From Acidimicrobiales bacterium (GTDB lineage: Bacteria > Actinomycetota > Acidimicrobiia > Acidimicrobiales > SZUA-35): DNA of 34,750 bases. Every line of letters begins with the position of its first letter. The first letter of the stretch is position 1. Below, one piece after another: positions 2-18,833 of the stretch. The position numbers and the translations under genes were made by a program. The stretch is from NCBI GenBank assembly GCA_013003535.1, contig JABDIY010000164.1, positions 1 to 34,750 of the forward strand, in the 5' to 3' direction. A model generated the notes under the pieces. The model saw only the letters and a program-made list of their open reading frames with translations, had not been told where the DNA came from and ran no database searches.

Positions 2-226
2 CCCGGCCAGGCCCCGCCAATTGCGGTGGCCGACGACACCGCTCCCGTGGTCACCGCGGTCGTTGAGCGGAACCGGGGTGGCCCCATCCCGTTCCTTATC
101 AGCGGAACCCGCTTCGTGCCGCTGGCATTCACGATCTTTAACGCCATTCTCTTTGCGATCTGCGCATACCTCATGCACATTCGTGACCGGCGGGAAATGG
201 CGATTCGCGCTCACGCCACAGCCTAG
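2..226 (+). CDS. C-terminal part of an unidentified single-span membrane protein (5' end outside window)
   Basis: The reading frame is open from the first bases of the window and stops at TAG 224-226, so only the last 74 residues are visible. They comprise a Pro/Ala/Val-rich stretch, then one clear hydrophobic segment of about 20 residues (from VPLAFTIF to CAYLMHI), then a short basic tail (RDRREMAIRAH). This fits a membrane-anchored protein with a small positively charged end. A GTG at 26 could start a 66-residue protein, but the frame stays open upstream, so a longer gene is equally possible. It lies 37 bp upstream of nuoA on the same strand and might be co-transcribed. I do not recognise the family. 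Confidence 0.5.
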   Translation, partial: PGQAPPIAVADDTAPVVTAVVERNRGGPIPFLISGTRFVPLAFTIFNAILFAICAYLMHIRDRREMAIRAHATA

Positions 227-3301: not shown

Positions 3302-3366
3302 ATGCCTCCACAGCCTCACGCCCAACTCAGTCTGTTCGCTCCGCCCGCAATTACATTGGTCACCAC

Positions 3367-3975
3367 ATGTCAAGACTGAACGAAGCCAACGTCGAACTCG
3401 CCCAAGAAATCATCGCCCGGTATCCGCGGCGCAAAAGTGCACTGATTCCGCTATTGCACGTGGCGCAGGAACAGAACGGCTACGTCACCACGGCTGCCAT
3501 GGAGCACTTGGCCGAGCTGGTCGGCATCACGCCGGCCGAAGTTTTGGGCACCGCCAGTTTTTATGAGATGTTCAAGTTCGAGCCTCAGGGCAAGTACATG
3601 GTGAATATCTGCACCAACATTTCCTGCCAGTTGCTGGGCGGAGAAGAGTTGCTGCATCACGCCGAGAAGACCCTGGGGATCCGGCCCGGTGGTACGACCG
3701 ACGACGGGTTGTTCACGCTGGAAGACGTTGAGTGCATGGCCGCCTGCACCGAGGCCCCGTGCTTGCAGGTCAACTACCGGCATGAGTATCGGCTCGACCA
3801 CGACGATTTCGACACGCTGATCAGCGAGCTTCGGTCTGGGAGTCGCCCTGACATCCCTGATCACGGAACGCTGGGTCTTGTCCGCCAACACATTCCTGAC
3901 GGCCGGATGGCCGGCATTGACTCCCCTGAGAAAACCGGATCGCCGGAGTGGTTCACCGCCCGGTCCTCCAACTAG
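3367..3975 (+). CDS. nuoE: NADH-quinone oxidoreductase subunit E (24 kDa, 2Fe-2S)
   Basis: NuoE is part of the NADH dehydrogenase module and binds the off-pathway 2Fe-2S cluster N1a. Ligands are Cys82 and Cys87 (CTNISC) and Cys123 and Cys127 (CMAAC), with the expected spacings in a thioredoxin-like fold. The N-terminal helical part includes RYPRRKSALIPLLHVAQEQNGY, as usual. The frame is open further upstream, into nuoD, but ATG 3367 (MSRLNEANVEL) matches the family start and leaves a 65-bp gap after nuoD. The ribosome site there is weak. At 202 aa it is about 35 residues longer than E. coli NuoE because of a polar C-terminal tail. Confidence 0.93.
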   Translation: MSRLNEANVELAQEIIARYPRRKSALIPLLHVAQEQNGYVTTAAMEHLAELVGITPAEVLGTASFYEMFKFEPQGKYMVNICTNISCQLLGGEELLHHAEKTLGIRPGGTTDDGLFTLEDVECMAACTEAPCLQVNYRHEYRLDHDDFDTLISELRSGSRPDIPDHGTLGLVRQHIPDGRMAGIDSPEKTGSPEWFTARSSN

Positions 3976-4001
3976 TTCGTACTTCGATTGAGAGCAATTT
4001 G

Positions 4002-5390
4002 ATGGCTACCAACACCTACGTGCCCCACGCCGCCGGATATGTCGACAACGAGGGCGTCAAGATCGTCTCCAGTCGATTCCAATATGAGGACAGCTACACG
4101 TTGGAGCGTTCGCTGTCCACCGGCGGTTACGAAGGCATGAAGAAGACGCTGCGGATGCAGCCTGCCGAGGTCGCCGCCGTCGTGAAGGATGCCGTGCTTC
4201 TGGGGCGTGGCGGCGCCGGCTTCCCTGCCGGTGTGAAATGGGGGTTCATGCCACCGGTGTGGCCTCGCTACCTGGTGGTCAACGGCGACGAGTCCGAGCC
4301 GGGCACCTACAAAGACCGGCTTCTCATGGAACGGGATCCTCATCAGCTGATCGAAGGCTGCATCATCGCCTGCTTCGCTTTGGGTCTCAACACTTGTTTT
4401 CTCTACGTGCGGGGCGAGATGCCTGTAGCCCAGGAACGCATCGCTGAGGCGCTCAACGACGCCTATGCCGCGGGTCTCGTTGGTAAGAACATCGACGGCA
4501 CCGATGTGAGTATCGACATCGTTCTCCACTGGGGTGCCGGCGCCTACATCGTTGGCGAGGAGACGGCACTGATCGAAAGCCTCGAAGGAAATCGAGGCAT
4601 GCCAAGGCTCAAGCCGCCGTTCTTCCCGGCGGCCAAGGGCCTCTACATGAAGCCCACGATCGTCAACAATGTTGAGACCCTGGCCAACCTGCCGTGGATC
4701 ATCACTAACGGTGCAGCCAACTTCAAGGAATACGGTTCTGAGAAATCCCCTGGCACGCGGCTGCTGGCGATTAGCGGTCATGTCAAACGACCCGGCGTGT
4801 ATGAAGTAGAGCAGGGCCGGGTTTCGTTCCGCGAATTGTTCTACGGCCATAACTTCTGCGGCGGAATCAAAGATGACAACGACCTCAAGATGTTCATTCC
4901 TGGCGGAGGCTCCGCTCCCTGGTTCTTTGAGGAGCAGTTGGATCTGCTGCTGGAGGCCGGCGACGTTGGTCCCGCGGGATCCATGCTGGGGTCCGGGGCG
5001 ATCGTCGTGATGGATCACACCACCGATGCAGTGAAAGCCTGTTTACGAGTAGTGCGGTTCTTCGCTCGAGAGAGCTGCGGCAAATGCACTCCATGTCGCG
5101 AAGGCACCAGCTGGGAAGAAAAGATTCTCCAACGAATCCTCGACGGTCATGGCCGGCCCGAAGACATCGACCTTCTGCTCGAGGTTGGAGCAAATATCAG
5201 CCCGAGCCCCTACCCGGTGGCTGCCGCTCCGGAGAGCGGGTTGGAGGCGGTACCGTTTCCTCCGAAGCAGACCACCATCTGCCCCCTTGGACCCAGCTCA
5301 GTGGCACCCATTACCAGTGCTATTCGTCGGTTCCGACCCGAATTCGAAGCCAAGATCGCCGCCGTGTCGCCGGTTGGTGCAGGAGCATAA
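4002..5390 (+). CDS. nuoF: NADH-quinone oxidoreductase subunit F (51 kDa, FMN and NADH binding)
   Basis: NuoF oxidises NADH, holds FMN and carries 4Fe-4S cluster N3. Visible motifs are the Gly-rich GRGGAGFPAGVKW nucleotide site, VNGDESEPGTYKDR, the GAGAYIVGEETALIESLEG segment, and the cluster ligands Cys359, Cys362, Cys365 (SCGKCTPC) plus Cys427 (TTICPLGPS). Cys365 and Cys427 are 62 residues apart, against about 41 in E. coli, owing to a Pro/Ala-rich insert near residues 398-420. ATG 4002 was chosen over an earlier in-frame ATG at 3948 because the earlier one lies inside nuoE. The stop TAA overlaps the nuoG ATG. Confidence 0.95.
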   Translation: MATNTYVPHAAGYVDNEGVKIVSSRFQYEDSYTLERSLSTGGYEGMKKTLRMQPAEVAAVVKDAVLLGRGGAGFPAGVKWGFMPPVWPRYLVVNGDESEPGTYKDRLLMERDPHQLIEGCIIACFALGLNTCFLYVRGEMPVAQERIAEALNDAYAAGLVGKNIDGTDVSIDIVLHWGAGAYIVGEETALIESLEGNRGMPRLKPPFFPAAKGLYMKPTIVNNVETLANLPWIITNGAANFKEYGSEKSPGTRLLAISGHVKRPGVYEVEQGRVSFRELFYGHNFCGGIKDDNDLKMFIPGGGSAPWFFEEQLDLLLEAGDVGPAGSMLGSGAIVVMDHTTDAVKACLRVVRFFARESCGKCTPCREGTSWEEKILQRILDGHGRPEDIDLLLEVGANISPSPYPVAAAPESGLEAVPFPPKQTTICPLGPSSVAPITSAIRRFRPEFEAKIAAVSPVGAGA

Positions 5391-7882
5391 TGACCGCCAC
5401 GGAGAATCCAGAATCGGCCAGCCCCGAAACGAACCCCGGTGTGCCTTTCACTCTCAATGGTGTTGAATTCCACGCCAACGACGGTGAGCTACTGATCGAT
5501 GCGGCGAAGCGCCACGGAGTCCACATCCCGCACTTTTGCTATCACCCGAGAATGACACCGGTAGGGATGTGCCGAATGTGTTTGGTGGAAGTCGATACGG
5601 GCCGAGGGGCGGGTCTTCAGCCGTCCTGCATGCTGCCGGTCACTCCCAACATGAAGGTGAACACCGAATCCGAACCAACCACGAAGGCTCAGGACGGAGT
5701 ACTGGAACTCCTGCTGATCAATCATCCGTTGGATTGCCCGGTGTGCGACAAAGGCGGTGAGTGCCCTCTCCAAGACAACGCCTACGCATTCGGGCCCGGC
5801 GAGTCCAGGTTCGTGGAGGAGAAGCGGCACTACGAGAAGCCCATCCCCATCAGCGATCTGGTCTATCTGGACCGGGAGCGATGCATTCTGTGTGACCGGT
5901 GCACCCGTTTCGCTTCAGAGGTCGCCGGCGATCCGCTCATCCACTTCATCGGTCGGGGTGCTCAAACCGAGGTCAATACGTTCCCCGAACACGAATTCTC
6001 CAGCTACTTCAGCGGGAACACGGTCCAGATCTGCCCGGTGGGTGCGCTCACCGCAAAGCCGTACCGTTTCGCCGCCCGCCCGTGGGATCTCAGCGAGACG
6101 GAGTCCACGTCGATGGTCGACAGTACCGGCGCCCGGGTGGCCCTGCACTCCAGTCAGGACCGTCTTGTTCGCATCCAGGGAGTGGATTCCGACGCCACCA
6201 ACTGGGGATGGTTGAGCGATAAGGAACGCTTCATTTACGAGGCCACTGATTCCCCCGAACGGCTCACCGAGCCGCTGGTACGGGATGGCAGCGGCGACGC
6301 CGTTCCCACCCGTTGGAACAATGCGGTGAAGCAGGTGGTGGAAGCTCTCGCCAGGCCGTCGGATCCCCGCCGCATTGGCGTGATCGGCGGTGCCCGCCTC
6401 ACCCTCGAGAGCCAATACGCGTGGGCCAAGCTCCTCAAAGGCCTGGGTGCGGTCGACAACATCGACGCCCAGTTGGGCGACGGTCTGCCCGCTGAGCTGG
6501 TCCTTGGCCTCCCCAAAGCAACGATCGACTCGGCCTGCCAGCCTGGCGGAGTAGTGGTATTGCTCGGCCCGGACCTCAAAGAGGAACTCCCCACCCTGTA
6601 TCTGCGGTTGCGCCACGCCATTCAGTTCGATGGGGTTTCCCTCGTGGAAATCTCGCCTCGGGTCACTTCGTTCGGTGACACGGTTGCAGCCCGGCTCAAC
6701 CCGTTGCCCGGTGCCACGGGACAGATTGCCAAGGCGTTGGCCGATGGCATGGTGGGCACCAGCATCGGTCGCAGTTCTGCCGAAGAACTCTCCGCAGCCC
6801 ACAAGCTGCTCATTTCAGACCGTCCCGTGACTGTCATTCTGGGACGAGGTAATTTGGCTGAGTCCACCGACATCATCGCCTCCGCGGTGGCGTCATTGCG
6901 GCGCGCGAATCCCAACGCCAAATTCCTCACCGCCCTCCGACGTGGCAATGTGCACGGCGCGTTGGAGATGGGTCTCACACCTGGCTATTTGCCCGGGGCT
7001 CAGCCCCTGTCGGCCGCGGTGGATGGCTGGGATATGGCACCGAGGTCCAGGGGTCTCGACACCGCCGGCATTCTGAAGTCGGCGGTAAATGGAACCCTGG
7101 ACACGTTGGTCCTTCTCGGGGCCGATCCCTTGACTGATTTCCCAGACTCGAAACTGGCTGCGGCCGCATTCGAGCGGGTCGGCACCGTAATCTCGGTAGA
7201 CACCTTCATGACCGCAAGCACCGGGCGGGCCGACGTGGTCCTCCCGGCGGCGATGTTCGGCGAGGTCGATGGAACATTCCTCAATCTCGAGGGCCGGATT
7301 TCCCCAGTGCAAGCAAAGGTCACCTCACCAGGACAGACCCGAGCTGACTGGATGATCGCAGCCGAAGTCGCCGCTGCGGCCGGGGGAGATCTGGGGTTCA
7401 CTACCCTGGCCGAGCTTCGATCCGATATTGCGGCCAACGTGCCTGGCTTCTCCGACGTCCATTGGGATCGCACTGGTCATGGTGCAGACGGCCCCGTGAT
7501 CACCGGTATCCGGTCATGGGAACCTACGCTCACCGAAACCGCACCGATCCCACCCGCCGACGACTACGGTCTTCGGTTGGTGGTTGATCGCAAACTTTGG
7601 GACAACGGAACGATGACGCTGGCCGCAGCTTCGCTGAAGGGCCAGGTAGGTGATGCGGTGATGAGCGTGTCCCCAGCCGACCTCGCTCGCCTTCGTATTC
7701 CGTCGGGAAATGAGGCGTCGGTTGCAGTGGGCGGCGGGGATGCTCGTACTGTGGTGGTGATGAGCGATCCCCGAGTGCCCGTGGGAGCCGCACATGTCCC
7801 GTTCCACCTCAACGGGGTGGACGCGTCAGACTTCCTTGTCACCGGGCAACCGGTGATCGACATCCGGATTCAGGCGCTGTAA
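5390..7882 (+). CDS. nuoG: NADH-quinone oxidoreductase subunit G (75 kDa), N7 cluster site lost
   Basis: NuoG carries most Fe-S clusters of the peripheral arm and has a C-terminal domain related to molybdopterin oxidoreductases. N1b ligands are Cys50, Cys61, Cys64 and Cys80. N5 ligands are His112, Cys116, Cys119 and Cys125. N4 ligands are Cys165, Cys168, Cys171 and Cys215. The fourth bacterial motif, C-x2-C-x3-C-x27-C for cluster N7, is present in position and spacing only: the four residues are Ser241, Asp244, Ala248 and Ser276. The subunit should therefore lack N7, as the mitochondrial 75 kDa protein does. The length is 830 aa. The ATG at 5390 overlaps the nuoF TAA, follows AGGAG, and is preferred to an earlier in-frame ATG inside nuoF. 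Confidence 0.95.
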   Translation: MTATENPESASPETNPGVPFTLNGVEFHANDGELLIDAAKRHGVHIPHFCYHPRMTPVGMCRMCLVEVDTGRGAGLQPSCMLPVTPNMKVNTESEPTTKAQDGVLELLLINHPLDCPVCDKGGECPLQDNAYAFGPGESRFVEEKRHYEKPIPISDLVYLDRERCILCDRCTRFASEVAGDPLIHFIGRGAQTEVNTFPEHEFSSYFSGNTVQICPVGALTAKPYRFAARPWDLSETESTSMVDSTGARVALHSSQDRLVRIQGVDSDATNWGWLSDKERFIYEATDSPERLTEPLVRDGSGDAVPTRWNNAVKQVVEALARPSDPRRIGVIGGARLTLESQYAWAKLLKGLGAVDNIDAQLGDGLPAELVLGLPKATIDSACQPGGVVVLLGPDLKEELPTLYLRLRHAIQFDGVSLVEISPRVTSFGDTVAARLNPLPGATGQIAKALADGMVGTSIGRSSAEELSAAHKLLISDRPVTVILGRGNLAESTDIIASAVASLRRANPNAKFLTALRRGNVHGALEMGLTPGYLPGAQPLSAAVDGWDMAPRSRGLDTAGILKSAVNGTLDTLVLLGADPLTDFPDSKLAAAAFERVGTVISVDTFMTASTGRADVVLPAAMFGEVDGTFLNLEGRISPVQAKVTSPGQTRADWMIAAEVAAAAGGDLGFTTLAELRSDIAANVPGFSDVHWDRTGHGADGPVITGIRSWEPTLTETAPIPPADDYGLRLVVDRKLWDNGTMTLAAASLKGQVGDAVMSVSPADLARLRIPSGNEASVAVGGGDARTVVVMSDPRVPVGAAHVPFHLNGVDASDFLVTGQPVIDIRIQAL

Positions 7883-9129
7883 TGGACCCTTACCTGCTCG
7901 ACGGCGTCGATTTCGGCGATGTCGTACTGTCGGTGGCCAAGGCCATCCTGGCCTTCGTCATCTGCCTGGTCGCCACCATGTTCATGGTCTGGTTCGAGCG
8001 CAAGGTAGTGAGTCGCCTCCAGAATCGGATCGGCCCCAACACCTCCGGCCCTTTCGGGATTCTCCAAACGCTGATGGACGGGATCAAGTTGTTCTTCAAA
8101 GAAGACAACATCCCTAAGGAGGCCGATCCCTTCGTCTTCCGCCTCGCCCCTTACTTGTCGCTCATCCCGGCATTTCTCACCTTCACGTTGATCCCCCTCG
8201 GCGGCGACTTCAACAACGGGAACGATGGGGCGGTCACGGTTTTTGGGCGGGAAACATTTCTTCAGGTCGCCGACCCGCCCGTTGGCATCCTTTTCTTTCT
8301 CGCCATGAGTTCGCTGGGAATCTACGGGATCATGCTGGCCGGCTGGGCTTCTGGCTCGAAGTATCCATTGTTGGGCTCGGTCCGGGCCTCGGCCCAGGCC
8401 ATCAGTTACGAGGCTGCTCTGGGGTTGAGTTTGGCTGCGGTTGTATTGGTGACTGGTGGTTTGAGCATGAACTCGATCGTGATGCAGCAGGCCGGTGAAG
8501 GCTTCGGCGGCATTATTCCCAACTTCAACATCATCGTCACCGGGTTCATCCCGTTTGCTGTTTTCCTCATCGCCGGTACCGCCGAGCTCAACCGGCCGCC
8601 GTTCGACCTTGTTGAGGCGGAGCAGGAATTGGTTGGCGGGTTTCACACTGAATACTCCGGCATCCGTTTCGCGTTGTTCTTCCTTGCCGAGTTCATGAAT
8701 ACGGTCACGATGGCGGCCATCATCGTGACGTTGTTCTTCGGGGGGCCGGCTGGTCCGGCCTTCCTGGGGTCCACATTGGGTTGGTTGACCGGCATGTTCT
8801 GGTTCCTTCTGAAACTGCTCGTATTTCTCTTTGCCTTTGTCTGGTTCCGAGCGTCGTTGCCTCGGTTCCGGTATGACCAGTTGATGTCCTTGGGATGGAA
8901 GCTTCTGATTCCGTTGTCACTGGGATGGTTGTTGGTGCTGGCCGGCATCCGTGTTGCCCGCAATGGCGACCTCGGCATCGCTGATTCGGCTTTCGGCGAC
9001 ACACTGATCGTGATCGGCGTTGCCTTCGCAATTCTGCTCATCGGTATGTATGTGCTCCGCAGCGCCATGACCAATGCCCGTCGGGACCGTCTGATAGCGG
9101 CGGGCTTCAACCCCCGGGAGGTCAACTGA
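7882..9129 (+). CDS. nuoH: NADH-quinone oxidoreductase subunit H
   Basis: NuoH is the membrane subunit that links the peripheral arm to the proton-pumping modules and forms part of the quinone tunnel entrance. Characteristic stretches are [32 protein letters not shown], the acidic loop [20 protein letters not shown] (which also contains GFHTEYSG just after), and many hydrophobic helices. The 415-residue length is within the range for actinobacterial NuoH, somewhat longer than the 325 aa of E. coli. The C-terminus ends in a basic tail ([18 protein letters not shown]). The start ATG overlaps the nuoG TAA by one base. Confidence 0.96.
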
Positions 9130-9130
9130 C

Positions 9131-9847
9131 ATGGGATATTTCGAGGGATTCGGTGTAACGCTCAAGCAGTGGGGGGTCGGTACAACCACCAAGGAATACC
9201 GCGGTGGCCGGACCAATCGCCAAGGCGAGATCAATCCCAAAGACCAAAAGGCACCAAAGCCGGAACGGGTCCACGGTCGCCACGTCCTGAACCGTTATGA
9301 GGACGGGATGGAGAAGTGCATCGGATGTGAACTGTGTGCCGGCGTGTGTCCCGCCAACTGCATCTATGTCCGCGGAAAGGACAACCCCGTAGAAGACCCC
9401 AAAAGCCCGGGCGAGCGGTACGGGTACGTGTACGAAATCAACTACTTGCGCTGCATTCACTGCGATCTTTGCGTTGAAGCGTGCCCCACCCAGGCCATCA
9501 CCGAGACCAAGCTCTTCGAGTTCTCCTTCACCAACCGCCAGGACGCCATCTACACCAAGGATGAACTCTTGGTCGGCGACGACGGCAAACCGCAAAATCT
9601 GCCTTGGGAAGACTGGCGGCCCGGTGAGGACGAGCACACCTCGGGGTGGATGCGGGCCACTTCCTCCTCCGGCAAGGCCAGCTTTCTGGGTACCACCAAC
9701 TGGAACGGCGAACTGGGCTACGGCGTCCGTCCCAGCGAACTCCCTCAAGATGAAAAAGACGCAAGTGTCACCCTGGCTGCGGCCGAGCACGACCATTCCG
9801 ACCACGACCATTCCGACCACGACCATTCCGACCACGGAGGCCACTGA
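9131..9847 (+). CDS. nuoI: NADH-quinone oxidoreductase subunit I (two 4Fe-4S clusters) with His/Asp-rich tail
   Basis: NuoI carries clusters N6a and N6b in a bacterial-type ferredoxin fold, relaying electrons toward N2. Two classical motifs are present: Cys63, Cys66, Cys69, Cys73 with a further Cys77, and Cys108, Cys111, Cys114, Cys118. A C-terminal extension of about 90 residues follows the ferredoxin core. It is acidic and ends in three exact repeats of Asp-His-Ser-Asp-His followed by Gly-Gly-His. That tail could bind metal ions, but no function is shown. GGAGG at 9117-9121 precedes the ATG. The stop overlaps the nuoJ ATG as TGATG. Confidence 0.95.
9791..9835 (+). repeat. Three perfect 15-bp tandem repeats encoding the NuoI tail
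   Basis: The unit GACCATTCCGACCAC occurs three times without a mismatch at 9791-9805, 9806-9820 and 9821-9835. It is in frame and encodes Asp-His-Ser-Asp-His each time. Because the unit is a multiple of three, copy-number change would lengthen or shorten the tail without a frameshift. The GGAGG just after the repeats (9836-9840) doubles as the likely ribosome site of nuoJ. Confidence 0.95.
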
Positions 9848-10425
9848 TGGTAGAAGTTATTACCTTCCTGGTGGCCGGGGCGATCGTGCTGGGCGGGGCA
9901 CTGGGTGTCATTTTGCTTCCCAAACCGGTACACGCTGCGCTCAGTTTGATTGCTTCATTCTTCGGCGTGGCGGTTGTCTTCATCATTCAGGAGGCTCACT
10001 TCTTGGCGCTGGTGCAAGTCGTGGTCTATGCGGGGGCAATCGTGGTGCTGTTCCTGTTCGTGATCATGTTGTTGGGGGTGGACACCGCGGACTCGCTTCG
10101 GGTCGAACCGTTGGTCGGTCAACGGTCGATGGCCATCCTGTTCGGGGTGCTCCTTCTCGCGCTCACCTTCGGCGGACTTTTCTTGTCGGGTCCCGGGGGC
10201 GAGGACGGTGCGGTGGCGCTCACCGGTCAGGAGTCTGTGATTCGCCCAATCGACGATCGTCCTCAGGTTGAACAGTTGGGGGAGGACCTCTTCAGCCGTA
10301 ACATTCTTGCGTTCCAAGCGACTGCGCTGCTGCTCACCATCGCCACCGTGGGAGCGGTTGTGCTGGTGCGCAACGAAGGTGGCGAAGACTTGGTCGTCGA
10401 TGAACCTGGTCTAGCGGCCGAGTAA
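9847..10425 (+). CDS. nuoJ: NADH-quinone oxidoreductase subunit J
   Basis: NuoJ is a membrane subunit lying between NuoA/H and NuoK; its third helix carries the flexible segment that changes in turnover. The protein has five predicted hydrophobic helices and the family stretch VQVVVYAGAIVVLFLFVIMLLG. It also has the usual hydrophilic loop (about residues 115-150) before a last helix. The length of 192 aa is normal. The ATG overlaps the nuoI stop and is served by GGAGG at 9836-9840. A 43-bp gap separates it from nuoK, the second-widest break inside the operon after the 65 bp between nuoD and nuoE. Confidence 0.95.
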   Translation: MVEVITFLVAGAIVLGGALGVILLPKPVHAALSLIASFFGVAVVFIIQEAHFLALVQVVVYAGAIVVLFLFVIMLLGVDTADSLRVEPLVGQRSMAILFGVLLLALTFGGLFLSGPGGEDGAVALTGQESVIRPIDDRPQVEQLGEDLFSRNILAFQATALLLTIATVGAVVLVRNEGGEDLVVDEPGLAAE

Positions 10426-10468: not shown

Positions 10469-10774
10469 ATGGAACTGACCGAGAGCTGGTATCTGGTTCT
10501 GAGCGCCCTGTTGTTCTCGATCGGTGCTGTGGGCCTCCTTATCCGGCGGAACCCGCTTGTGATGTTCATGTGTATCGAGCTGATGCTCAACGCGGTGAAC
10601 ATCACCTTCGTCACGTTCTCCATCTCCCTCAACGATTTGGCCGGCCAGTCCGCCGTGTTTTTCGTGCTCGTGGTGGCTGCCGCCGAGGTAGTGATCGGCC
10701 TGTCGATCGTCGTGGCCGTGCTGCGACGCACCCCTGAAGCAACCGCCGACGACATCTCGGCGCTACGGGGTTAG
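10469..10774 (+). CDS. nuoK: NADH-quinone oxidoreductase subunit K
   Basis: NuoK is a three-helix MrpC-like membrane subunit that takes part in proton translocation. The protein shows the family pattern, including LFSIGAVGLLIRRNPLVMFM followed by CIELMLNAVNITFV with its conserved membrane glutamate, and a last helix with AAAEVVIGLSIVVAVLRR, which holds the second conserved glutamate. The length of 101 aa is canonical. A perfect AGGAGG at 10459-10464 lies four bases from the ATG, the best ribosome site in the operon, so this gene may reset translation after the 43-bp gap. Confidence 0.96.
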   Translation: MELTESWYLVLSALLFSIGAVGLLIRRNPLVMFMCIELMLNAVNITFVTFSISLNDLAGQSAVFFVLVVAAAEVVIGLSIVVAVLRRTPEATADDISALRG

Positions 10775-10776
10775 CT

Positions 10777-13143
10777 GTGCTGGAACTCGCCTGGCTAATA
10801 CCCGCCGCCCCGCTCGCCGGTTTCGCATTTCTCGTCCTTCTTGGCCGCCGACTCGGTGAACCGGCGGCCGGCTGGCTAGCTTTCCTGGCTACAGCCACCA
10901 GCTTCGTGGCCACCGCCGTGGTATTCCTCGGGCTCGTTGCCGAGGACTTCGAAGAACGCTTCTTCATTCAGACCCTTTTCGAATGGGTACCGGCAGGGAA
11001 CTTCACCGTCAACGCCGGACTGCTGGTGGACCCCCTCTCCATCACCATGTGCCTGTTCATCACCGGTGTTGGTGCGCTGATCCATCTCTACTCCATCGGA
11101 TACATGCATGGCGACCCCAACTTCTCAAAGTTCTTCGTCTACCTGAACCTGTTCATCTTCGCCATGTTGGTCCTGGTTCTGGGCGACAATATGTTGATGA
11201 CCTTCCTCGGTTGGGAAGGTGTTGGGGCGTGCTCCTACTTCCTTATTTCGTTCTGGTTCACCGATTCCTCCAACGCCTCCGCCGGGAAGAAAGCCTTTGT
11301 CACCAACCGGATCGGTGATTTCGGATTCATGCTGGCCATGTTCCTGGTGTTCTCCACGATCGGTTCGATCAGCTACGCCAACATCCTGTCGTCAGCGCCT
11401 GGCCTCGCTACCGGTACAGCCACCGCGATCGTGCTGCTCTTGCTGCTCGCCGCTGCTGGCAAGTCGGCCCAGCTGCCACTCTATGTGTGGCTGCCCGATG
11501 CCATGGCCGGCCCAACGCCAGTCTCGGCTCTCATTCACGCAGCCACCATGGTGACCTCGGGCGTCTACCTGCTGACTCGAATGAACCCCGTGCTGGCGGT
11601 CGCTGACGGATGGGCTACCACCAGCATCGCGTGGGTCGGGGCGCTCACAGCGTTGTTCGCTGCCACGGTGGCTCTGGCCCAGAATGACATCAAGAAGGTG
11701 CTGGCCTACTCCACGGTCTCCCAACTCGGCTATCTCTTCCTTGCCGTTGGCGTAGGGGCCTACGTTCCCGCCATATTTCACATGGTCACCCACGCCTTTT
11801 TCAAGGCGTTGCTGTTCCTGGGCTCCGGCTCGGTGATTCACGGCATGAAAAACGAACAAGACATGCGCCGGATGGGCGGTCTTGCCAAGCTGATGCCCAT
11901 CACGGCCATGACATTCATTGTTGGCTGGTTGGCGATCGCTGGAGTTCCTCCGTTCGCTGGGTTCTGGAGCAAAGACGAGATCCTGCTATACGCATGGAAC
12001 GAAAACAAAGCCCTCTGGGCGGTTGGCCTCGTTACCGCCCTCCTCACGGCGTTCTATATGACCAGACAGGTGATCCTCACCTTCTTCGGCCGGACCCGGT
12101 TCTTCGATGCCACCGCCGAAGAGATCTACGGTGCATTCGATAACCGCCTCGCCACCGCCGGGGGAGGGGTTGCAAGCGCCGAAGACAATCTTGTCGCCGC
12201 TCATTCGGCGGTCGAGAAGGCCGCTGCCGATGTTGACAAACGCAGCCAGGCCGTGCAGGTGTCGGCCGAGAAACTGAACGAAGCCAAAGAAGCGTTGGCC
12301 AAGGTCAGTGCCGACGACGAATCCCACGCAAAACTGCAAAAGGCGCTGGACAAGGCCGAGAAGAGTGTTCCCAAGGCCTCTGAAAATCTCGCCTCCAGTC
12401 AGCACGGTCTCGTGCAAGCCAACAGCGGAGTTGACGAGGCCAACACCCAACTGGCCACCGCTAAATCCGCATTTGCGGCATTGCAGGCCAAACGCAACTC
12501 ACTAGCGCTGCCCGATGAACACGTCACCGCTCTATCCGAGGCTCCCGAGCTGGGTGATCTGCTCGATGAAATGCCCAATTCCTACCGGGAACGGCAGGAA
12601 TACCACCCCCACGAGTCTCCGTGGACAATGACAGTGCCATTGGTCGTGTTGGCCGGTGCGTCCGCGGTAGCAGGCGGTTTGAATCTCCCGTTCAGCAAGG
12701 ATCTGCACTTCCTCGGCCACTGGCTGGAGCCCAGCCTGTTTGCCAATGAGGCAGAACTCCTCGTGGCAACCTCCACCAAATGGGGGCTTGCAGTAGTAGC
12801 GATAGTTTGCGCGCTTGCAGCCATCGGGGCCGCCATTGCCGTGTACCTCCGCGGCCGGGCGGAGCCGCAGGTCATCGAGAGGGAACCTTTCGCCCGAGCG
12901 TGGTACGTGGATGAGACTTTCGCCCGAATCGCGGGGGGTCCTGGCCAAAAAGGCTTTGATCTGGCAGCGCTGTTCGACCGTCGGGTGATCGACGGCGCGG
13001 TGGACGGCGTTGCCACCGCGGCACGTGCGTTGGGCACGTCGATGCAGTCGCTCCAGACCGGGTTCGTTCGAAACTCCGCTTTGGGGATCGTGGTTGGTTC
13101 AGCTGGTGTTGTGGCCTGGTTCCTCGCGAGGTTGTGGCAATGA
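10777..13143 (+). CDS. nuoL: NADH-quinone oxidoreductase subunit L with large Ala-rich insertion
   Basis: NuoL is the distal Mrp-antiporter-like proton pump of complex I and carries the long lateral helix. Core motifs are present: IGYMHGDPNFSKFF, FLGWEGVGACSYFLISFW, the lysine region around GKSAQLPLYVWLPDAMAGPT, and the NDIKKVLAYSTVSQLGY helix. The protein is 788 aa, whereas NuoL is usually about 610-650. The excess is one block of about 165 residues (445-608) between FFGRTRFFD and HPHESPW. Removing it leaves about 623 residues, a normal NuoL. The start is GTG 10777, two bases after the nuoK stop. The stop overlaps the start of nuoM. Confidence 0.95.
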   Translation: MLELAWLIPAAPLAGFAFLVLLGRRLGEPAAGWLAFLATATSFVATAVVFLGLVAEDFEERFFIQTLFEWVPAGNFTVNAGLLVDPLSITMCLFITGVGALIHLYSIGYMHGDPNFSKFFVYLNLFIFAMLVLVLGDNMLMTFLGWEGVGACSYFLISFWFTDSSNASAGKKAFVTNRIGDFGFMLAMFLVFSTIGSISYANILSSAPGLATGTATAIVLLLLLAAAGKSAQLPLYVWLPDAMAGPTPVSALIHAATMVTSGVYLLTRMNPVLAVADGWATTSIAWVGALTALFAATVALAQNDIKKVLAYSTVSQLGYLFLAVGVGAYVPAIFHMVTHAFFKALLFLGSGSVIHGMKNEQDMRRMGGLAKLMPITAMTFIVGWLAIAGVPPFAGFWSKDEILLYAWNENKALWAVGLVTALLTAFYMTRQVILTFFGRTRFFDATAEEIYGAFDNRLATAGGGVASAEDNLVAAHSAVEKAAADVDKRSQAVQVSAEKLNEAKEALAKVSADDESHAKLQKALDKAEKSVPKASENLASSQHGLVQANSGVDEANTQLATAKSAFAALQAKRNSLALPDEHVTALSEAPELGDLLDEMPNSYRERQEYHPHESPWTMTVPLVVLAGASAVAGGLNLPFSKDLHFLGHWLEPSLFANEAELLVATSTKWGLAVVAIVCALAAIGAAIAVYLRGRAEPQVIEREPFARAWYVDETFARIAGGPGQKGFDLAALFDRRVIDGAVDGVATAARALGTSMQSLQTGFVRNSALGIVVGSAGVVAWFLARLWQ
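12109..12600 (+). other. In-frame insertion in nuoL encoding a probable alpha-helical coiled coil
   Basis: This segment encodes NuoL residues 445-608. It is rich in Ala, Lys, Glu, Asp, Ser and Gln, has almost no aromatic residues in its centre and no Cys. It reads as long amphipathic helices, for example AVQVSAEKLNEAKEALAKV and KALDKAEKSVPKASENLA. No hydrophobic span interrupts it, so it should form a soluble loop domain outside the membrane. Which side of the membrane it faces was not determined. The base composition looks like the surrounding gene. I recognise no family. Confidence 0.8.
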
Positions 13144-14795
13144 TGGTCTCCCAGACCGGACTCCTGTTTGGCGCCGAAGCGGCCGAGGCCGTGTCGTTCT
13201 CGTTGCTACCGGCCTTGGTGATCGTGCCGCTCCTGACGGCGCTGGTGATCGGGCTGCTCCCCAGCAGCCGTGGCGAGTATGCCCGCCTGACGGCGCTGGT
13301 TGGCTCCGCCGCTACCGGGGCACTCTCGGTCTATCTGCTGCTGGACTTCGACGCCAGCGATGGCGGCTTCCAGTACGTGGTAGCCCAGGACTGGATCGCC
13401 GATTTCGGCTTGTCGCTCCAGTTCGGCGTCGACGGGATCTCACTCTTCCTTGTGGTGATGACCGGCATCTTGTTCCCCGTGGGAATCCTCGCCACGACTG
13501 CCGAGCATCACCCCAAGGCGTACCACCTGTGGGTGATGGTTCTGATGGCGGGGTCCATGGGCGTCTTCATGGCGCTGGACCTTCTGCTGTTCTTCATGTT
13601 CTTCGAGATCGTGCTGGTCCCCATGTATTTCTTGATCGGGGGGTGGGGCCACGGGAATCGGGTCTACGCGGCGCTCAAGTTCTTCATTTTCACCATGGCC
13701 GGATCGGCGTTGATGCTCGTCGGCATCTTCGGCGTAGTGTTCCTCACCGCCCGCCAAACCGGGGTGGTCACATTTGATATACGGGCACTCGCCGAAGCTC
13801 AGGCGCTCACCGGGTTCGAATCTCGAGCAGTCCTGTTGGCGTTCGCGTTGGCGTTCGCTGTGAAGGTTCCGCTGTTCCCACTGCACACCTGGTTGCCCGA
13901 CGCTCATACCGAGGCCCCCACCATCGGTTCGGTCATCCTGGCCGGCGTGATGCTGAAGTTGGGAACCTATGGTTTCCTTCGGTTCGGGCTCTACCTCTTT
14001 CCCGAGGCCTCCTATGATCTCGCCCCGCTCTTCCTCACGCTGGGGGTGATCGGCATCCTGTATGCGGCGATTGTGGCCACCATGCAGAGAGATCTGAAAC
14101 GGCTGATCGCCTATTCGTCCATTGCCCATCTCGGATTCATCATGGTGGGTCTGTTCGCCCTCAACTCTCAGGGCATCCAAGGGGCCGTTTTTCAGATGGT
14201 GGCCCACGGCATCTCTACCGGCGCCCTCTTCATCCTGGTCGGTTGGATCTACGAACGCCGCCACACCCGTTTGATCGCTGAGCTCTCGGGGCTCCAGAAA
14301 TCTGCTCCGATCTTTGCCGGCGTGTTCACTCTCGTCATGCTGTCCAGCGTTGGCCTACCGGGCCTGAACGGATTCGTTGGCGAGTTCTTGATCCTGCTGG
14401 GCGCCTTCAACGATGAGGCCCGGTGGTGGGCGATCATTGGGACCAGCGGTGTCATCCTGGCCGCCCTCTACCTTCTGTGGGCTTACCAACGGGTGTTTCA
14501 TGGTGTTGCCGAGGGGGAGAACGCCACGATGGCGGACCTCAAGGTGTCGGAGTTCTTGTCCATCCTTCCGCTCTTGGCGCTGATCATAGGGATGGGTGTC
14601 TACCCCAAGCCGATCCTCGACCGGATCGAACCGGCCGTTGATGACCTCATCGCCCACATCGAGGCCAACGTAGACGGATTTGATGAGCCCGAACCGGATG
14701 TCCCCGCCGAACATGATCCTCGTGAGCTGTTGATCGAGGCGTTCCACGAGGCCGAAGCCAGCCATGCCGAGTCCGCTGAGGGAGAGGGGGAGTGA
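13140..14795 (+). CDS. nuoM: NADH-quinone oxidoreductase subunit M
   Basis: NuoM is the second Mrp-type antiporter-like subunit of complex I. Family landmarks are LQFGVDGISLFLVVMTGI, the FFMFFEIVLVPMYFLIGGWG helix with its key membrane glutamate, VKVPLFPLHTWLPDAHTEAP with the conserved lysine, and the RDLKRLIAYSSIAHLGFIMVG segment. The length of about 550 aa is slightly above average because of an acidic C-terminal tail (EPEPDVPAEHDP to EGEGE). Starts at GTG 13134, ATG 13140 or ATG 13143 are all possible. The two ATGs overlap the nuoL stop, as is usual in this operon. Confidence 0.95.
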   Translation: MMVSQTGLLFGAEAAEAVSFSLLPALVIVPLLTALVIGLLPSSRGEYARLTALVGSAATGALSVYLLLDFDASDGGFQYVVAQDWIADFGLSLQFGVDGISLFLVVMTGILFPVGILATTAEHHPKAYHLWVMVLMAGSMGVFMALDLLLFFMFFEIVLVPMYFLIGGWGHGNRVYAALKFFIFTMAGSALMLVGIFGVVFLTARQTGVVTFDIRALAEAQALTGFESRAVLLAFALAFAVKVPLFPLHTWLPDAHTEAPTIGSVILAGVMLKLGTYGFLRFGLYLFPEASYDLAPLFLTLGVIGILYAAIVATMQRDLKRLIAYSSIAHLGFIMVGLFALNSQGIQGAVFQMVAHGISTGALFILVGWIYERRHTRLIAELSGLQKSAPIFAGVFTLVMLSSVGLPGLNGFVGEFLILLGAFNDEARWWAIIGTSGVILAALYLLWAYQRVFHGVAEGENATMADLKVSEFLSILPLLALIIGMGVYPKPILDRIEPAVDDLIAHIEANVDGFDEPEPDVPAEHDPRELLIEAFHEAEASHAESAEGEGE

Positions 14796-16387
14796 TGTTG
14801 GCCCAAGTTGCCACTCCTGAAGTTCCGTGGTCGCTCCTGTGGCCGTTCCTGCTGATGGCGCTCGGAGCCGTTGCGTTGGTGACGATCACGTCGCTGGTGA
14901 CAGAGCTTCGGACCCGCCAGTTTCCCTCGCTCTTCACGATCGCCATGGCGGTCGGAGGCGGGGCATCCCTTCCCTACATTTGGGGGCGAATTGGCGAAAT
15001 CCCGGAACGGCGCATCCTGGTCCTCGACGGGGCGATGAGCATCGACTATTTCACGATCGTCGCGGCCGCCATTATCCTCTCCGCGGTTGTATTTGCCGCG
15101 ATCTTCCTGGACGACTATCTCCGCCGAGAAGGCCTGGATGGACCCGAGTGGTACGTGCTCATCATGTTGTCGGCCTCCGGCGGGTTGATGATGGCTGCGG
15201 CGGAGGATCTGATCGTCACTTTCTTGGGTCTCGAGATTCTATCAATCGCCGTTTATGTGCTGGCTGCGCTCCACCTGCGCCGCGCCGAAAGCCAGGAAGC
15301 CGGCTTCAAGTATTTCGTACTCGGAGCGCTGTCATCGGCATTCTTCCTTTACGGCATCGCCTTGGTGTATGGCGCCACCGGGAGCACTCGCCTCAGCGAA
15401 ATCGACGCCGCGCTGTTCGCCACCAACGCCCGGGGACTCGTCCCGGCCGAGGACTCGTCGATGATCTTGGCGGGAATGGCGCTCCTTTTGGTGGGTTTCG
15501 GTTTCAAAGTCTCGGCTGCTCCCTTCCATCTGTGGACGCCGGACGTCTATCAGGGCGCCCCAACCCCTGTGGTGGGATTCATGGCCTCGGCGGTGAAGGT
15601 GGGTGGCTTCGCCGGACTCCTGCGGGTCTTCCTCGCCGGGTTTGGCCGCCTGGGTGATGACTGGCGTCCGGTGGTCGGTGCCATGGCGTTGTTGTCGATC
15701 GTGATCGGTTCATTCCTGGCCATTCGCCAAGACAACGTGAAGCGCATGCTGGCCTACTCCTCCATCAGTCACGCTGGGTTCATCCTTATCGGCCTTTTCG
15801 CAGCGGGTTCCCGAAATGCCGAGGTGGCCCAGCTCGGAACCCGTTCTGTTCTGTTCTACCTCTTCGCCTACACGGTGATGGTGGTCGGCAGTTTTGGAGT
15901 GGTCACCCTGGTTGGCGGTCGCGGCGATGGAAAGCACGATCTCAGTGATTACGCCGGCCTCGCCCAGCGCAGCCCGATCCTGGCGGGGTTTTTCCTGGTG
16001 CTGTTGTTCGCCCAGGCTGGCATTCCTTTTACCAGCGGCTTCCTTGCCAAGTTCGGTGTCATTCAGGCGGCGGTTCGAGACGAGGCCTATGTACTGGCCG
16101 GGGTGGCGATGGTTGCCGCAGTAGTGGGTGCCTACCTCTACCTGAGGATCATCAAGACCATGTTCTTCAGCGATGGCGCCCACACGGTTCCGGTTGCCGC
16201 CGCCCTCGATACCAATGTTGAGGCCACTCCAGACGGAGCGGTCATCGCGCCGGACGAGCAGATCTCGCTCCCACCCGCCGCTGTGGCCGCCATCTTGGTC
16301 GCAGTTGCGATCACGTTGTTGTGGGGGTTTGCCCCGAACATCGGCGGCGACATCCTTCGGGACGCCGCCGCCACCTTCCTGCGCTAG
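14795..16387 (+). CDS. nuoN: NADH-quinone oxidoreductase subunit N
   Basis: NuoN is the third antiporter-like subunit, next to NuoK. Motifs include FLGLEILSIAVYVLAALHLR, followed soon by SQEAGFKYFVLGALSSAFFLYG, then KVSAAPFHLWTPDVYQGAPTPV and RQDNVKRMLAYSSISHAGFI. The length of about 530 aa is typical for actinobacteria. ATG 14795 overlaps the nuoM TGA as TGATG and follows a purine-rich GGGAGAGGGGGA. A GTG three bases upstream is an alternative. This is the last gene of the first complex I operon. A gap of 184 bp follows before the next coding region. Confidence 0.95.
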   Translation: MLAQVATPEVPWSLLWPFLLMALGAVALVTITSLVTELRTRQFPSLFTIAMAVGGGASLPYIWGRIGEIPERRILVLDGAMSIDYFTIVAAAIILSAVVFAAIFLDDYLRREGLDGPEWYVLIMLSASGGLMMAAAEDLIVTFLGLEILSIAVYVLAALHLRRAESQEAGFKYFVLGALSSAFFLYGIALVYGATGSTRLSEIDAALFATNARGLVPAEDSSMILAGMALLLVGFGFKVSAAPFHLWTPDVYQGAPTPVVGFMASAVKVGGFAGLLRVFLAGFGRLGDDWRPVVGAMALLSIVIGSFLAIRQDNVKRMLAYSSISHAGFILIGLFAAGSRNAEVAQLGTRSVLFYLFAYTVMVVGSFGVVTLVGGRGDGKHDLSDYAGLAQRSPILAGFFLVLLFAQAGIPFTSGFLAKFGVIQAAVRDEAYVLAGVAMVAAVVGAYLYLRIIKTMFFSDGAHTVPVAAALDTNVEATPDGAVIAPDEQISLPPAAVAAILVAVAITLLWGFAPNIGGDILRDAAATFLR

Positions 16388-16571: not shown

Positions 16572-18833
16572 ATGACCGATCGCACTGCCTTCCGCACCTG
16601 TCCGCTCTGCGAGGCCGGGTGCGGATTGGAGATCGAACTCAGCGCCACGCCCGATGGCGGTGAAGAGGTGAGGCGCATCCGCGGCGACATGGACGACGTC
16701 TTCAGCGCTGGCTTCCTCTGCCCCAAGGGCTCCACCCTCAAACACCTACATGAGGACCCAGACTGGCTCCGGGAACCTCAGATCAAACGGGACGGCCGGT
16801 TCGTTCCGGCCACCTGGGACGAGGCATTCGAGGCTGTCGCCGCCGGGCTCAAGCCGGTCATCGACCAGCACGGTCGGGACGCGGTGGCGATCTATCTAGG
16901 GAACCCCAATGCCCACAGCTTGGCACCGATGTTCTACAACCGGACCTTGATCCGCGCCATGGGCACTCGCAACCGATTCAGTGCCTCAACAGTTGACCAA
17001 CGGCCAAAGGAGATCTCCGCCGCCATGCTGTTCGGGTCGGTCACCGTGCCGGTCCCAGACCTGGACAGAACCGATTACCTCCTGGTGCTCGGGGCCAATC
17101 CGCTGGCCAGCAATGGGTCGCTCTGTACCGCCCCGGACTTCCCGGGTCGCATGAAACGAATTCAAGAACGGGGCGGATCTGTTGTGGTTGTGGACCCGCG
17201 GCGCAGCGAGTCCGCTGAAGTAGCAGATCGGCACCTCGCCATTCGACCAAACGGCGACGCCTACTTTCTGGCTGCACTTTCTCATGAGCTGCTGGCTCGC
17301 GGTGCGGCGCCAGGACGACTGGCGCCGTTCACCACCGGGTTGGACCGGTTGCCGCAGTTGTTCGCCCCGTTTACTCCCGCAGCGGTAGTAGGTCGTACCG
17401 GGCTCACCGTCGCGCAGGTCGAACGAGTGGCCGATGACCTGATCGCCAGTCCCACCGCCGCCGTCTACGGGCGGATCGGTACCACGTGTCAGGAGTTCGG
17501 AACGCTGAGTAGTTGGCTTGTGGACGTCGTGAACCTCCTGAGTGGCAACCTCGATCGTGAGGGCGGGGCCATGTTCGCAACGGGGGCAGCTGGCCAACCC
17601 TCGACTCAGGGCGAGCCCGGCAAGGGCCGGGGCTTCCGAATGGGACGCGCGGTGAGCCGGGTTTCGGAACAGCCGGAGTGTTTCGGGGAGTTCCCCGTAA
17701 CCGCGTTGCCGGAGGAGATCGAGACGCCAGGAGACGGCCAGGTGCGGGCCCTGGTGACGGTGGGGGGAAACCCGGTGAGCTCCAACCCCAACAGCGGACG
17801 CCTCGATGCGGCCATCGAAGGCCTGGACTTCATGGTCAGCGTTGACCCCTACATCAACGAGACCACTCGCCATGCCGACGTGATCCTGCCGCCTCCCTCG
17901 CCGTTGCAGAAGCCCCACTATGACCTCGCTCTCCTCAACTTCGCTGTTCATAATGTGGCGAACTACTCGCCGCCCGTTCTGCCGTTGGAGGAGACGCAAA
18001 TGGACGAGGGACAAATTCTCCTTCGCCTCGCCGCAGTCTTTCTCGGCGAGGCTGCCAGTGGGCCGGCTGCCGCAGAAGCGGTGGAAAACCTGGATATGGC
18101 GACGGCTACCGGCATGGCGAGCGGAGCCGTGAAGGACGGTTTTGGCAAAGTTGCCGATCGCACTGCAGAAGATTTGCTGGAGGCCGTCGGTGAGCGGACG
18201 GGAAGCGAACGCCTGTTGGACATCGCGCTTCGGACCGGACCATTTGGAGACGGCTTCGATCCTGACAGTGGAGGGCTTTCCCTCAACACCCTGGAGACCA
18301 GTCCCCACGGTGTTGATCTCGGCCCGCTGGAGGCCAACCGCCTCCCCGGGATCCTTCGCACGGAGAGCGGGACAATCGAACTTCTGAACGATCAGCTGCT
18401 CAGTGAGATCGCCCGCCTCACCGAACTGTTGCAAGAAGAAACTCCGGAAATGGTGTTGGTTGGCCGCCGCCACGTGCGGTCAAACAACTCCTGGATGCAC
18501 AATGTGCGGGTTCTCACCAAGGGCAAGAACCGCTGCACGATGCAGATCCACCCCCAGGATGCCGAGCGGTTGGGAATCAGCGATGGAGCAGCCGCCAGGG
18601 TGATCAGCCGGGTTGGTGAATTGGTGATCGACGCAGAGTGCACTGATGTCGTGCGACCAGGGGTGATCAGCATTCCACACGGGTTCGGACAGAATGCGGA
18701 AGGTGTGCAGTTGCGGGTGGCCTCGGAATACCGAGGGGTCAACACCAACCTCGTGACCGACGAGTACCTTCGCGATCCGATCAGCGGCAACATCGCTCTC
18801 AACGGCGTGCCCGTGACGGTGGCACCGGCCTGA
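16572..18833 (+). CDS. Molybdopterin (bis-MGD) oxidoreductase, DMSO reductase superfamily, substrate unknown
   Basis: The N-terminus has a 4Fe-4S site of the formate dehydrogenase/nitrate reductase type: Cys10, Cys13, Cys17 and Cys50 (FLCPKGS). Pterin-binding motifs follow, such as LVLGANPLASNGS, VVVVDPRRSESAEVAD and VTVGGNPVSSNPN. The C-terminal molybdopterin-dinucleotide domain contains LVGRRHVRSNNSWMHN and HPQDAERLGISDGA. Aligning NRFSASTVDQ by eye with the selenocysteine region of E. coli FdhF puts Asp142 at the metal-ligand position. Asp serves there in NarG-type enzymes, so this is probably not a Cys/Sec formate dehydrogenase. There is no Tat signal, so it is likely cytoplasmic. The 753-aa protein stands alone with no partner subunit beside it. 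ATG 16572 follows an in-frame stop at 16560-16562. Confidence 0.88.
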   Translation: MTDRTAFRTCPLCEAGCGLEIELSATPDGGEEVRRIRGDMDDVFSAGFLCPKGSTLKHLHEDPDWLREPQIKRDGRFVPATWDEAFEAVAAGLKPVIDQHGRDAVAIYLGNPNAHSLAPMFYNRTLIRAMGTRNRFSASTVDQRPKEISAAMLFGSVTVPVPDLDRTDYLLVLGANPLASNGSLCTAPDFPGRMKRIQERGGSVVVVDPRRSESAEVADRHLAIRPNGDAYFLAALSHELLARGAAPGRLAPFTTGLDRLPQLFAPFTPAAVVGRTGLTVAQVERVADDLIASPTAAVYGRIGTTCQEFGTLSSWLVDVVNLLSGNLDREGGAMFATGAAGQPSTQGEPGKGRGFRMGRAVSRVSEQPECFGEFPVTALPEEIETPGDGQVRALVTVGGNPVSSNPNSGRLDAAIEGLDFMVSVDPYINETTRHADVILPPPSPLQKPHYDLALLNFAVHNVANYSPPVLPLEETQMDEGQILLRLAAVFLGEAASGPAAAEAVENLDMATATGMASGAVKDGFGKVADRTAEDLLEAVGERTGSERLLDIALRTGPFGDGFDPDSGGLSLNTLETSPHGVDLGPLEANRLPGILRTESGTIELLNDQLLSEIARLTELLQEETPEMVLVGRRHVRSNNSWMHNVRVLTKGKNRCTMQIHPQDAERLGISDGAAARVISRVGELVIDAECTDVVRPGVISIPHGFGQNAEGVQLRVASEYRGVNTNLVTDEYLRDPISGNIALNGVPVTVAPA

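Follow-up and report, generated by a model that had tools for sequence, protein, structure and literature searches.

Descriptions of bacterial complex I usually present a minimal machine of 14 subunits with closely conserved core membrane subunits. In the solved complex I of Mycobacterium, the subunit NuoL/ND5/Nqo12 (chain L of 8e9g) has 3 residues between transmembrane helices (TM) 13 and 14, and the same stretch has 13 residues in 6hum, 0 in 4he8 and 6 in 8qby. These four chains could be aligned on both sides of the site and give the range of 0-13 residues, while E. coli 7z7r was aligned on the N-terminal side only. Here we describe a NuoL of an Acidimicrobiales bacterium (assembly GCA_013003535.1) with 165 residues more at this place. 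The DNA analysed, called the window below, is the whole stretch of 34,750 nucleotides from contig JABDIY010000164.1, and it holds a complete nuoA-N operon in the order A-N. Core parts, key residues and operon order are like those of the Mycobacterium complex, but the additional block is predicted to form a long coiled-coil hairpin. The gene and the block are located as follows.

10777..13143, + strand: nuoL, distal antiporter-like subunit of complex I, 788 amino acids (aa) (open reading frame (ORF), Pfam and NCBIfam models)
12109..12603, + strand: inserted domain, residues 445-609, between TM13 and TM14 (Pfam, phmmer, alignments)

The gene sits between nuoK and nuoM, and its product exceeded the cut-offs of the curated NuoL models TIGR01974 (661.2 bits, cut-off 407.5) and NF005141/PRK06590 (680.8 bits, cut-off 556). 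The core parts Proton_antipo_N and Proton_antipo_M were found by Pfam together with a weak Proton_antipo_C match. E147, K229, H254 and K399 (TM5, TM7, TM8 and TM12), which we take to be functional residues, are present in their usual motifs and were invariant in 23 sequences. The insert itself has 165 residues and is bordered by FFGRTRFFD, which begins at residue 436, and HPHESPW, which begins at residue 610. The Pfam antiporter matches end at 424 and resume at 605, and in phmmer comparisons with NuoL/ND5 chains of the PDB the match was broken at about 441-443 and 605-609. The initial annotation had placed a single block at 12109-12600, between the same two motifs of a 788-aa NuoL, which was correct except for one codon. 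It had also stated that NuoL would have normal length without the block, which is the case (623 aa), and that this loop is short in characterised NuoL, as the four solved chains indeed show. The short loop of the solved homologues is missing from the window NuoL, and it is a variable trait rather than a defining one. Of the composition given at that time, Ala/Lys/Glu-rich, the part on Ala (22%) and Glu (10%) was retained, but Lys makes up only 7%; Leu accounts for 10%, and the net charge of the insert is -10.

To see the insert against other NuoL proteins, a phylum sample of 198 genomes was searched, of which 179 had some match to a NuoL model and 141 were over the cut-off. Among the matches listed, the window NuoL was the only one whose profile match was broken at position 450, and those spanning most of the NuoL profile were at most about 44 aa longer than the profile. 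When the window insert was searched alone, Pfam gave matches to unrelated coiled coils and F420_ligase that were all below the cut-off, and the sequence search of the PDB found no homologous solved chain (best E 0.32).

The fold of the insert was predicted with AlphaFold2 from the insert and 16 relatives (17 sequences), which gave two long helices joined by a short tip, the arrangement of a hairpin, with a mean predicted local distance difference test score (pLDDT) of 90.2 and a predicted template modelling score (pTM) of 0.72. The block-mean pLDDT was 94-98 over most of both arms. The full-length NuoL model had the same two helices with a pLDDT of about 72-88, the second one spanning 515-575, and the expected membrane helices were present. 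The parts of the predicted hairpin are listed below.

12115..12300, + strand: helix 1 (arm 1), residues 447-508 (AlphaFold2; heptads)
12301..12324, + strand: tip, residues 509-516, KVSADDES (AlphaFold2; alignment); the consensus of the family is A/S-rich and then D-D-G
12325..12489, + strand: helix 2 (arm 2), residues 517-571 (AlphaFold2; heptads)
12490..12603, + strand: C-terminal base, residues 572-609, with a (V)TA motif and short helices at 593-598 and 601-608, followed by HPHESPW (AlphaFold2; alignment)

The alignment of the insert showed the heptad pattern of a coiled coil in both arms (alignment numbers are residue numbers minus 435, and the heptad register was taken from the columns by eye). 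The best period of column hydrophobicity was 3.52 in arm 1, with 7 of 2000 shuffles as high, and 3.50 in arm 2, with 0 of 2000. The a/d positions of arm 1 are 19, 23, 26, 30, 33, 37, 40, 44, 47, 51, 54, 58, 61, 65, 68 and 72, and those of arm 2 (85..138) equal 157 minus the positions of arm 1, which means 16 layers mirrored about a 12-residue tip. Two layers are imperfect: every row that has a residue at column 54 has Lys or Arg, and half of the rows have Arg at column 138, which belongs to the outermost basal layer (19/138). The a positions are mostly Val, Leu or Ile. Columns 26-68 and 92-127 at d are mostly Ala, except the basic column 54, and the end columns 19, 85 and 134 are Phe or Leu. 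An Alacoil has Ala at every d position and a tight spacing, and the layers with Ala at d make the predicted hairpin Alacoil-like in pattern. For each of the 44 inserts that were scored, the top-scoring pair of heptad segments exceeded every one of 40 shuffles of the insert's own loop.

The strongest evidence for the antiparallel arrangement is evolutionary and comes from matched length changes. In locus L014 both arms of the insert are exactly 7 residues shorter than those of its relatives (7+7), and in genus g80 of family f27 both are exactly 14 residues longer (14+14); these are two events, each taken from one multiple alignment, and other length classes include changes of the linker. When 16 length classes were compared, the two arms co-varied in their length from tip to base (r = 0.88). 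The tip was misplaced in G001, G003, G267 and G111, but the classes were represented by other rows in this correlation (G000 for f1/172 and G320 for f27/182). The g80 inserts (L142-L144, L155) also have an N-V-P-x-A-E stretch in both arms (NVPVAE, NVPIAE or NVPTAE) and with it one proline per arm, which could be matched kinks; in the window's family, f1, the conserved proline is in arm 2 only (residue 532). With a rise of 1.5 angstrom per residue, an arm of some 55-62 residues would span about 80-93 angstrom. Foldseek against the PDB gave no match to the insert with an E of 0.001 or better, and its matches were generic hairpins such as the receptor-binding domain of colicin E2 and HP0958, with a root-mean-square deviation of 3.2 and 2.4 angstrom over 122 columns. 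The helices and heptads bear out the earlier proposal of a protruding, helical, coiled-coil-like domain on the distal pump, and AlphaFold2 predicted order in it and not disorder.

The side of the membrane was assessed by counting helices on the AlphaFold model, where the TM13-14 loop has the same parity as helix HL, and by the distribution of basic residues: with the insert excluded, 18 are on the side of the TM13-14 loop (8 of them within the HL segment) and 4 on the opposite side. According to the available text of PMC7419157, HL spans from TMH15 to TMH16 on the cytoplasmic side and the beta-hairpins are periplasmic, and in that of PMC8762328 residues of the ND4 TMH13-14 loop are among the matrix-side contacts of the distal bulge. 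Because of this parity, the pattern of basic residues and the published positions of HL and the ND4 loop, the arm should stand in the cytoplasm. This predicted topology bears on a point left to be checked by the initial annotation and goes against one of its proposals, namely that the arm touches a component of the cell envelope. A contact with an envelope or periplasmic component would suit the protruding shape, and nothing further was found in its favour, but the loop is cytoplasmic by helix parity and the positive-inside pattern, and HL and the ND4 loop have their published places on that side; a contact with the outer envelope is therefore unlikely, and we consider the whole idea very improbable. 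We are highly confident, on the basis of the models and alignments, that the block is a rigid antiparallel coiled-coil hairpin on the cytoplasmic side.

To follow the distribution of the hairpin, 37 genomes of family f1 (including the window's own) were inspected. The insert was present in 30 of them, the coil was absent in 3 (G008, G018, G024), and 4 could not be judged (G004, G028, G033, G035); three of the carriers (G023, G026, G034) have the gene divided between contigs. Of 28 complete f1 sequences, 22 measure 181 residues from FFG to SPW. In G018 both base motifs are kept without the coil, and the entire loop is 70 residues long. A search of the order with a profile of the insert matched 30 of 298 genomes, and 28 of the 30 matches were inside NuoL, while L057 and L061 had no NuoL motif. 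Six further families have an insert of this kind: divergent versions were found in f24, f27, f34, f40 and f54, and a shorter one in f13 (G048). Judged from match spans, the insert was present in 30 of 51 f34 genomes, absent in 18 (genera g151, g391 and g394) and unjudgeable in 3. Of 19 f27 genomes, 14 had the insert and 4 allowed no judgement; the remaining one, G690, seems to be without most of the coil. The match pattern of the G690 locus (G690:C336:1699-3195, L156) suggests that the base motifs are kept and most of the coil is missing. Another NuoL of f27 (G303:C55:21949-24267, L150) has an in-frame TGA stop.

Beyond the order, a sample of 396 phylum genomes (members of the order included) gave 10 matches to the insert profile, and only those of the window genome and G069 were inside NuoL. 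In this sample no insert match inside NuoL was found outside the order, and the matches of 7 outside genomes and of G038 had no NuoL motif. In the genomes searched, the insert is restricted to one clade of Acidimicrobiales. The 26 named loci with relatives of the insert are all from metagenome-assembled genomes, titled Acidimicrobiales, Acidimicrobiia, Acidimicrobiaceae or Actinomycetes/Actinomycetota; they gave 23 NuoL frames, of which 22 entered the full-length alignment (the truncated L079 was left out) and 16 the insert alignment.

In a tree built from 58 NuoL cores with the loop taken out, rooted at the midpoint only and with G054 on a long branch, 43 of 43 rows with a loop of at least 110 aa fell into one clade of 48 (support 97/96); the fragment G320 and loci L029 and L031 were not in the tree. 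The clade of 48 also holds five coil-less rows, and the coil label has to change four times on the tree, in agreement with a single gain of the coil and three losses. In the extraction of loops, two f54 loops were recovered later and used in the heptad and arm-length tests, the loop of G041 was 14 aa, and the label "no coil" of G054 came from a 664-aa frame. The f34/f27 loop set was made without L200, L201 and L153, and 5 f34 loops and 1 f27 loop that were extracted with fewer than 100 aa were dropped; loci L146, L183, L195, L198 and L199 do carry the insert, and L184 gave no match. In coil-less relatives of the order, the TM13-14 loop had 9 to 70 aa and was often acidic and His-rich. The coil-less NuoLs of L094, L096, L099, L100, L101 and L137 often have an acidic/His-rich low-complexity loop of 43-67 aa, which is a different kind of growth.

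For the analysis of selection, eight pairs of sequences were compared. The ratio of nonsynonymous to synonymous differences per site (pN/pS) was 0.17-0.69 in the insert and 0.05-0.24 in NuoL residues 1-444 of the same pairs, with synonymous divergence (dS) saturated in several. By this sequence measure, the insert is under purifying selection and hence kept. This result bears on the suspicion that the block is a low-complexity or disordered expansion, or an artefact of gene fusion or assembly, for which its Ala-rich composition and the weak Pfam matches to unrelated coiled coils and F420_ligase (those of the window insert all being below the cut-off) could be quoted. But the helices are predicted with high confidence, the block is seen in many independent assemblies, and its motifs are conserved. 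Since it is present in many independently assembled genomes, is under purifying selection and scores above shuffled sequences, the block is not a matter of chance or assembly error, and an artefact is scarcely credible.

The surface of the predicted hairpin was then compared between its distal and basal halves. In f1, surface positions outside the coiled-coil core were more conserved in the distal half (1.76 versus 2.57 bits, 0/20000 permutations). Within the distal half the c/g face was more conserved than the b/e face (1.02 versus 2.39 bits, 0/20000 permutations), and there was no such difference in the basal half (2486/20000 permutations). These statistics used all 28 rows with near-copies kept and one f24 row included. 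Family f34 was analysed separately (20 of 23 aligned rows after removal of near-copies) and gave the same picture: 1.39 versus 1.82 bits for the distal and basal surface (245/20000 permutations), 0.81 versus 1.98 bits for c/g and b/e in the distal half (0/20000), and no difference in the basal half (13842/20000). In an antiparallel pair the g sides of both arms lie on one face. The conserved regions are as follows.

12217..12297, + strand: distal half of arm 1, residues 481-507, with a conserved c/g face (f1 conservation; same in f34)
12334..12414, + strand: distal half of arm 2, residues 520-546, with Lys at c and small residues at most g positions (f1 conservation; f34)

Families f1 and f34 share conserved lysines at the c positions of both arms and small residues at the g positions of arm 2. 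When the arm-2 consensus of f1 (columns 83-99) was set against that of f34 (columns 74-90) by eye in heptad register, 10 of 17 positions agreed, including four lysines. Several positions in f34 are always Lys or always Arg, not merely basic. Because the conserved face has lysines on both arms, plain face-to-face self-pairing is less likely. The one-sided conservation of the distal half in f1 and f34 is the reason why we read this half as a docking surface for a partner, for which we see even chances; the earlier suggestion that the domain serves for contact agrees with such a face. The partner would probably be acidic; of those named earlier, another NuoL or a member of a supercomplex may apply.

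Two other explanations of the same surface have to be weighed. The hairpin may be a partner-free Ala-rich coiled coil that has grown in a permissive loop and is kept for no other reason than that it folds well. The loop does vary in length across the order (9 to 70 aa in coil-less relatives), the coil is missing in several lineages nested among carriers, and the insert evolves faster than the core. But a tolerated insertion agrees poorly with the unvarying length of most complete f1 sequences (22 of 28), with purifying selection, with the matched heptad changes in both arms and with a one-sided conserved face in two families, and we find it improbable though not negligible. Alternatively, the hairpin could fold down with its lysine face below and brace the cytoplasmic face of NuoL/NuoM or the anionic lipid heads, like a second lateral helix. 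It begins on the same, cytoplasmic side as HL, its conserved face is lysine-rich, and with its length of about 80-93 angstrom it could extend across NuoM. A brace, however, should be conserved along the whole arm, and the conserved surface is confined to the distal half; besides, no length change of NuoM or NuoN was seen to follow the arm, and a brace would not call for positions that are always Lys or always Arg in f34. We regard bracing as unlikely.

In the docking model that we propose, the hairpin would be rooted by the conserved motifs in the TM13-TM14 loop and stand on the cytoplasmic face of the distal pump. The c/g face of its distal half would be the docking surface, where complex I holds its partner, either some cytoplasmic protein or a further respiratory complex. 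The arm would organise or tether complex I and have no part in proton pumping; the arm is missing in close relatives whose nuo operons are otherwise normal, which suggests that pumping can do without it. A more specific version, which we put forward only tentatively, is that the lysine-rich distal face takes hold of one particular acidic partner, such as an acyl-carrier-type protein, a regulator in the cytoplasm or an adjacent respiratory complex, and that the arm is a one-piece functional counterpart of the mitochondrial matrix-side distal bulge.

Several points weigh against the reading of the block as a rigid docking arm. The structure is a computational prediction, and AlphaFold2 was run on one chain only. 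When arm lengths were measured by the heptad-segment method, which has noisy end points, they did not correlate (r = 0.15). By dN ratios the insert outpaces the NuoL core in protein evolution by a factor of about 3 to 5. The two conserved surfaces differ in detail, the g positions of arm 1 being mostly Ala or Asp in f1 and Lys or Glu in f34. A ladder of lysines stands out clearly in these two families and was not seen in f27, f24 and f54, so the partner or function may differ there, and the docking role may perhaps not be common to all carriers. Salt bridges within the hairpin could account for part of the conservation at c/g; that the opposite e face is not conserved speaks against them as the whole reason. 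No companion length change was seen by eye in any Nuo subunit from A to N over 33 operons (the window and 32 loci, several incomplete and with estimated starts). The docking role is a hypothesis that f1 and f34 support consistently.

The remaining genes of the nuo operon surround nuoL in the usual order. The coordinates of nuoA to nuoK are ORF starts as listed mechanically, without refinement.

264-830, + strand: nuoA (ORF list, curated models)
830-1411, + strand: nuoB (ORF list, curated models)
1413-1973, + strand: nuoC (ORF list, curated models)
1973-3301, + strand: nuoD (ORF list, curated models)
3208-3975, + strand: nuoE (ORF list, curated models)
3948-5390, + strand: nuoF (ORF list, curated models)
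5084-7882, + strand: nuoG (ORF list, curated models)
7882-9129, + strand: nuoH (ORF list, curated models)
9131-9847, + strand: nuoI (ORF list, curated models)
9847-10425, + strand: nuoJ (ORF list, curated models)
10469-10774, + strand: nuoK (ORF list, curated models)
13134-14795, + strand: nuoM (ORF list, Pfam, curated models)
14792-16387, + strand: nuoN (ORF list, Pfam, curated models)

NuoA (264-830) has 188 aa, and the curated NuoA models cover residues 1-117 only, which leaves a C-terminal extension of about 70 aa. It is long in the other compared operons too, with or without the arm (mostly 145-193 aa; 117 in G053). Downstream of nuoN, 16572-18833 on the same strand encodes a molybdopterin oxidoreductase related to formate dehydrogenase/nitrate reductase, for which no NCBIfam model was over the cut-off. 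The same genome has a second NuoL-like protein (G000:C163:11330-12466, L088) in an 830-aa frame, with a short TM13-14 loop and about 49% identity over residues 79-442. NuoL paralogues resembling L088 are listed in many f1 relatives, which suggests a second complex-I-type cluster.

A whole clade has fitted its terminal pump with an arm, rigid by prediction and some 8-9 nm in length, on the side that carries accessory subunits in mitochondria. Should this arm dock a partner, it would offer a simple and genetically separable case for the tethering, supercomplex arrangement or regulation of complex I, with the relatives that have no arm as natural controls. If it does nothing, the TM13-14 loop would be shown to be permissive, which suggests a site for tags or probes. 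We found no description of an insertion between TM13 and TM14 of NuoL in the open-licence PMC literature as far as its text was available, PMC10212512 included. From its available portion, a complex I genome survey of 2025 (PMC12361115) drops matches of unusual protein length, and length filtering in such surveys may be one reason why arm forms go unnoticed.

Among known systems, the generic hairpins of the colicin E2 receptor-binding domain and HP0958 are like the arm in overall shape, but with 12% and 11% identity and no significant E-value there is no evidence of kinship. In the DAB2 complex, as described in the accessible part of PMC13144422, a "finger-like" helix-loop-helix of DabA2 is likewise a helical hairpin associated with a NuoL-like protein, DabB2; that hairpin is amphipathic, membrane-inserted and part of DabA2, whereas the present one would be a soluble coiled coil and is part of NuoL. 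The mitochondrial PD-bulge (NDUFB9, NDUFAB1-beta, NDUFB4, NDUFB6 and NDUFB8), as far as PMC8762328 could be consulted, is like the arm in being extra mass on the N side at the ND5/ND4 end of the membrane arm, but it is made of separate accessory subunits, and here there is one hairpin within a core subunit. The 94-residue G-loop of E. coli NuoG (PMC8357420, from the text at hand) is also a lineage-specific insertion in a core subunit. It is compact, lies in the peripheral arm and touches neighbouring subunits, whereas the NuoL hairpin is predicted to be free-standing and belongs to a membrane subunit. The arm belongs to a known kind of change, the lineage-specific insertion into a core subunit of complex I, and this particular insertion was not found described in the open-licence literature searched.

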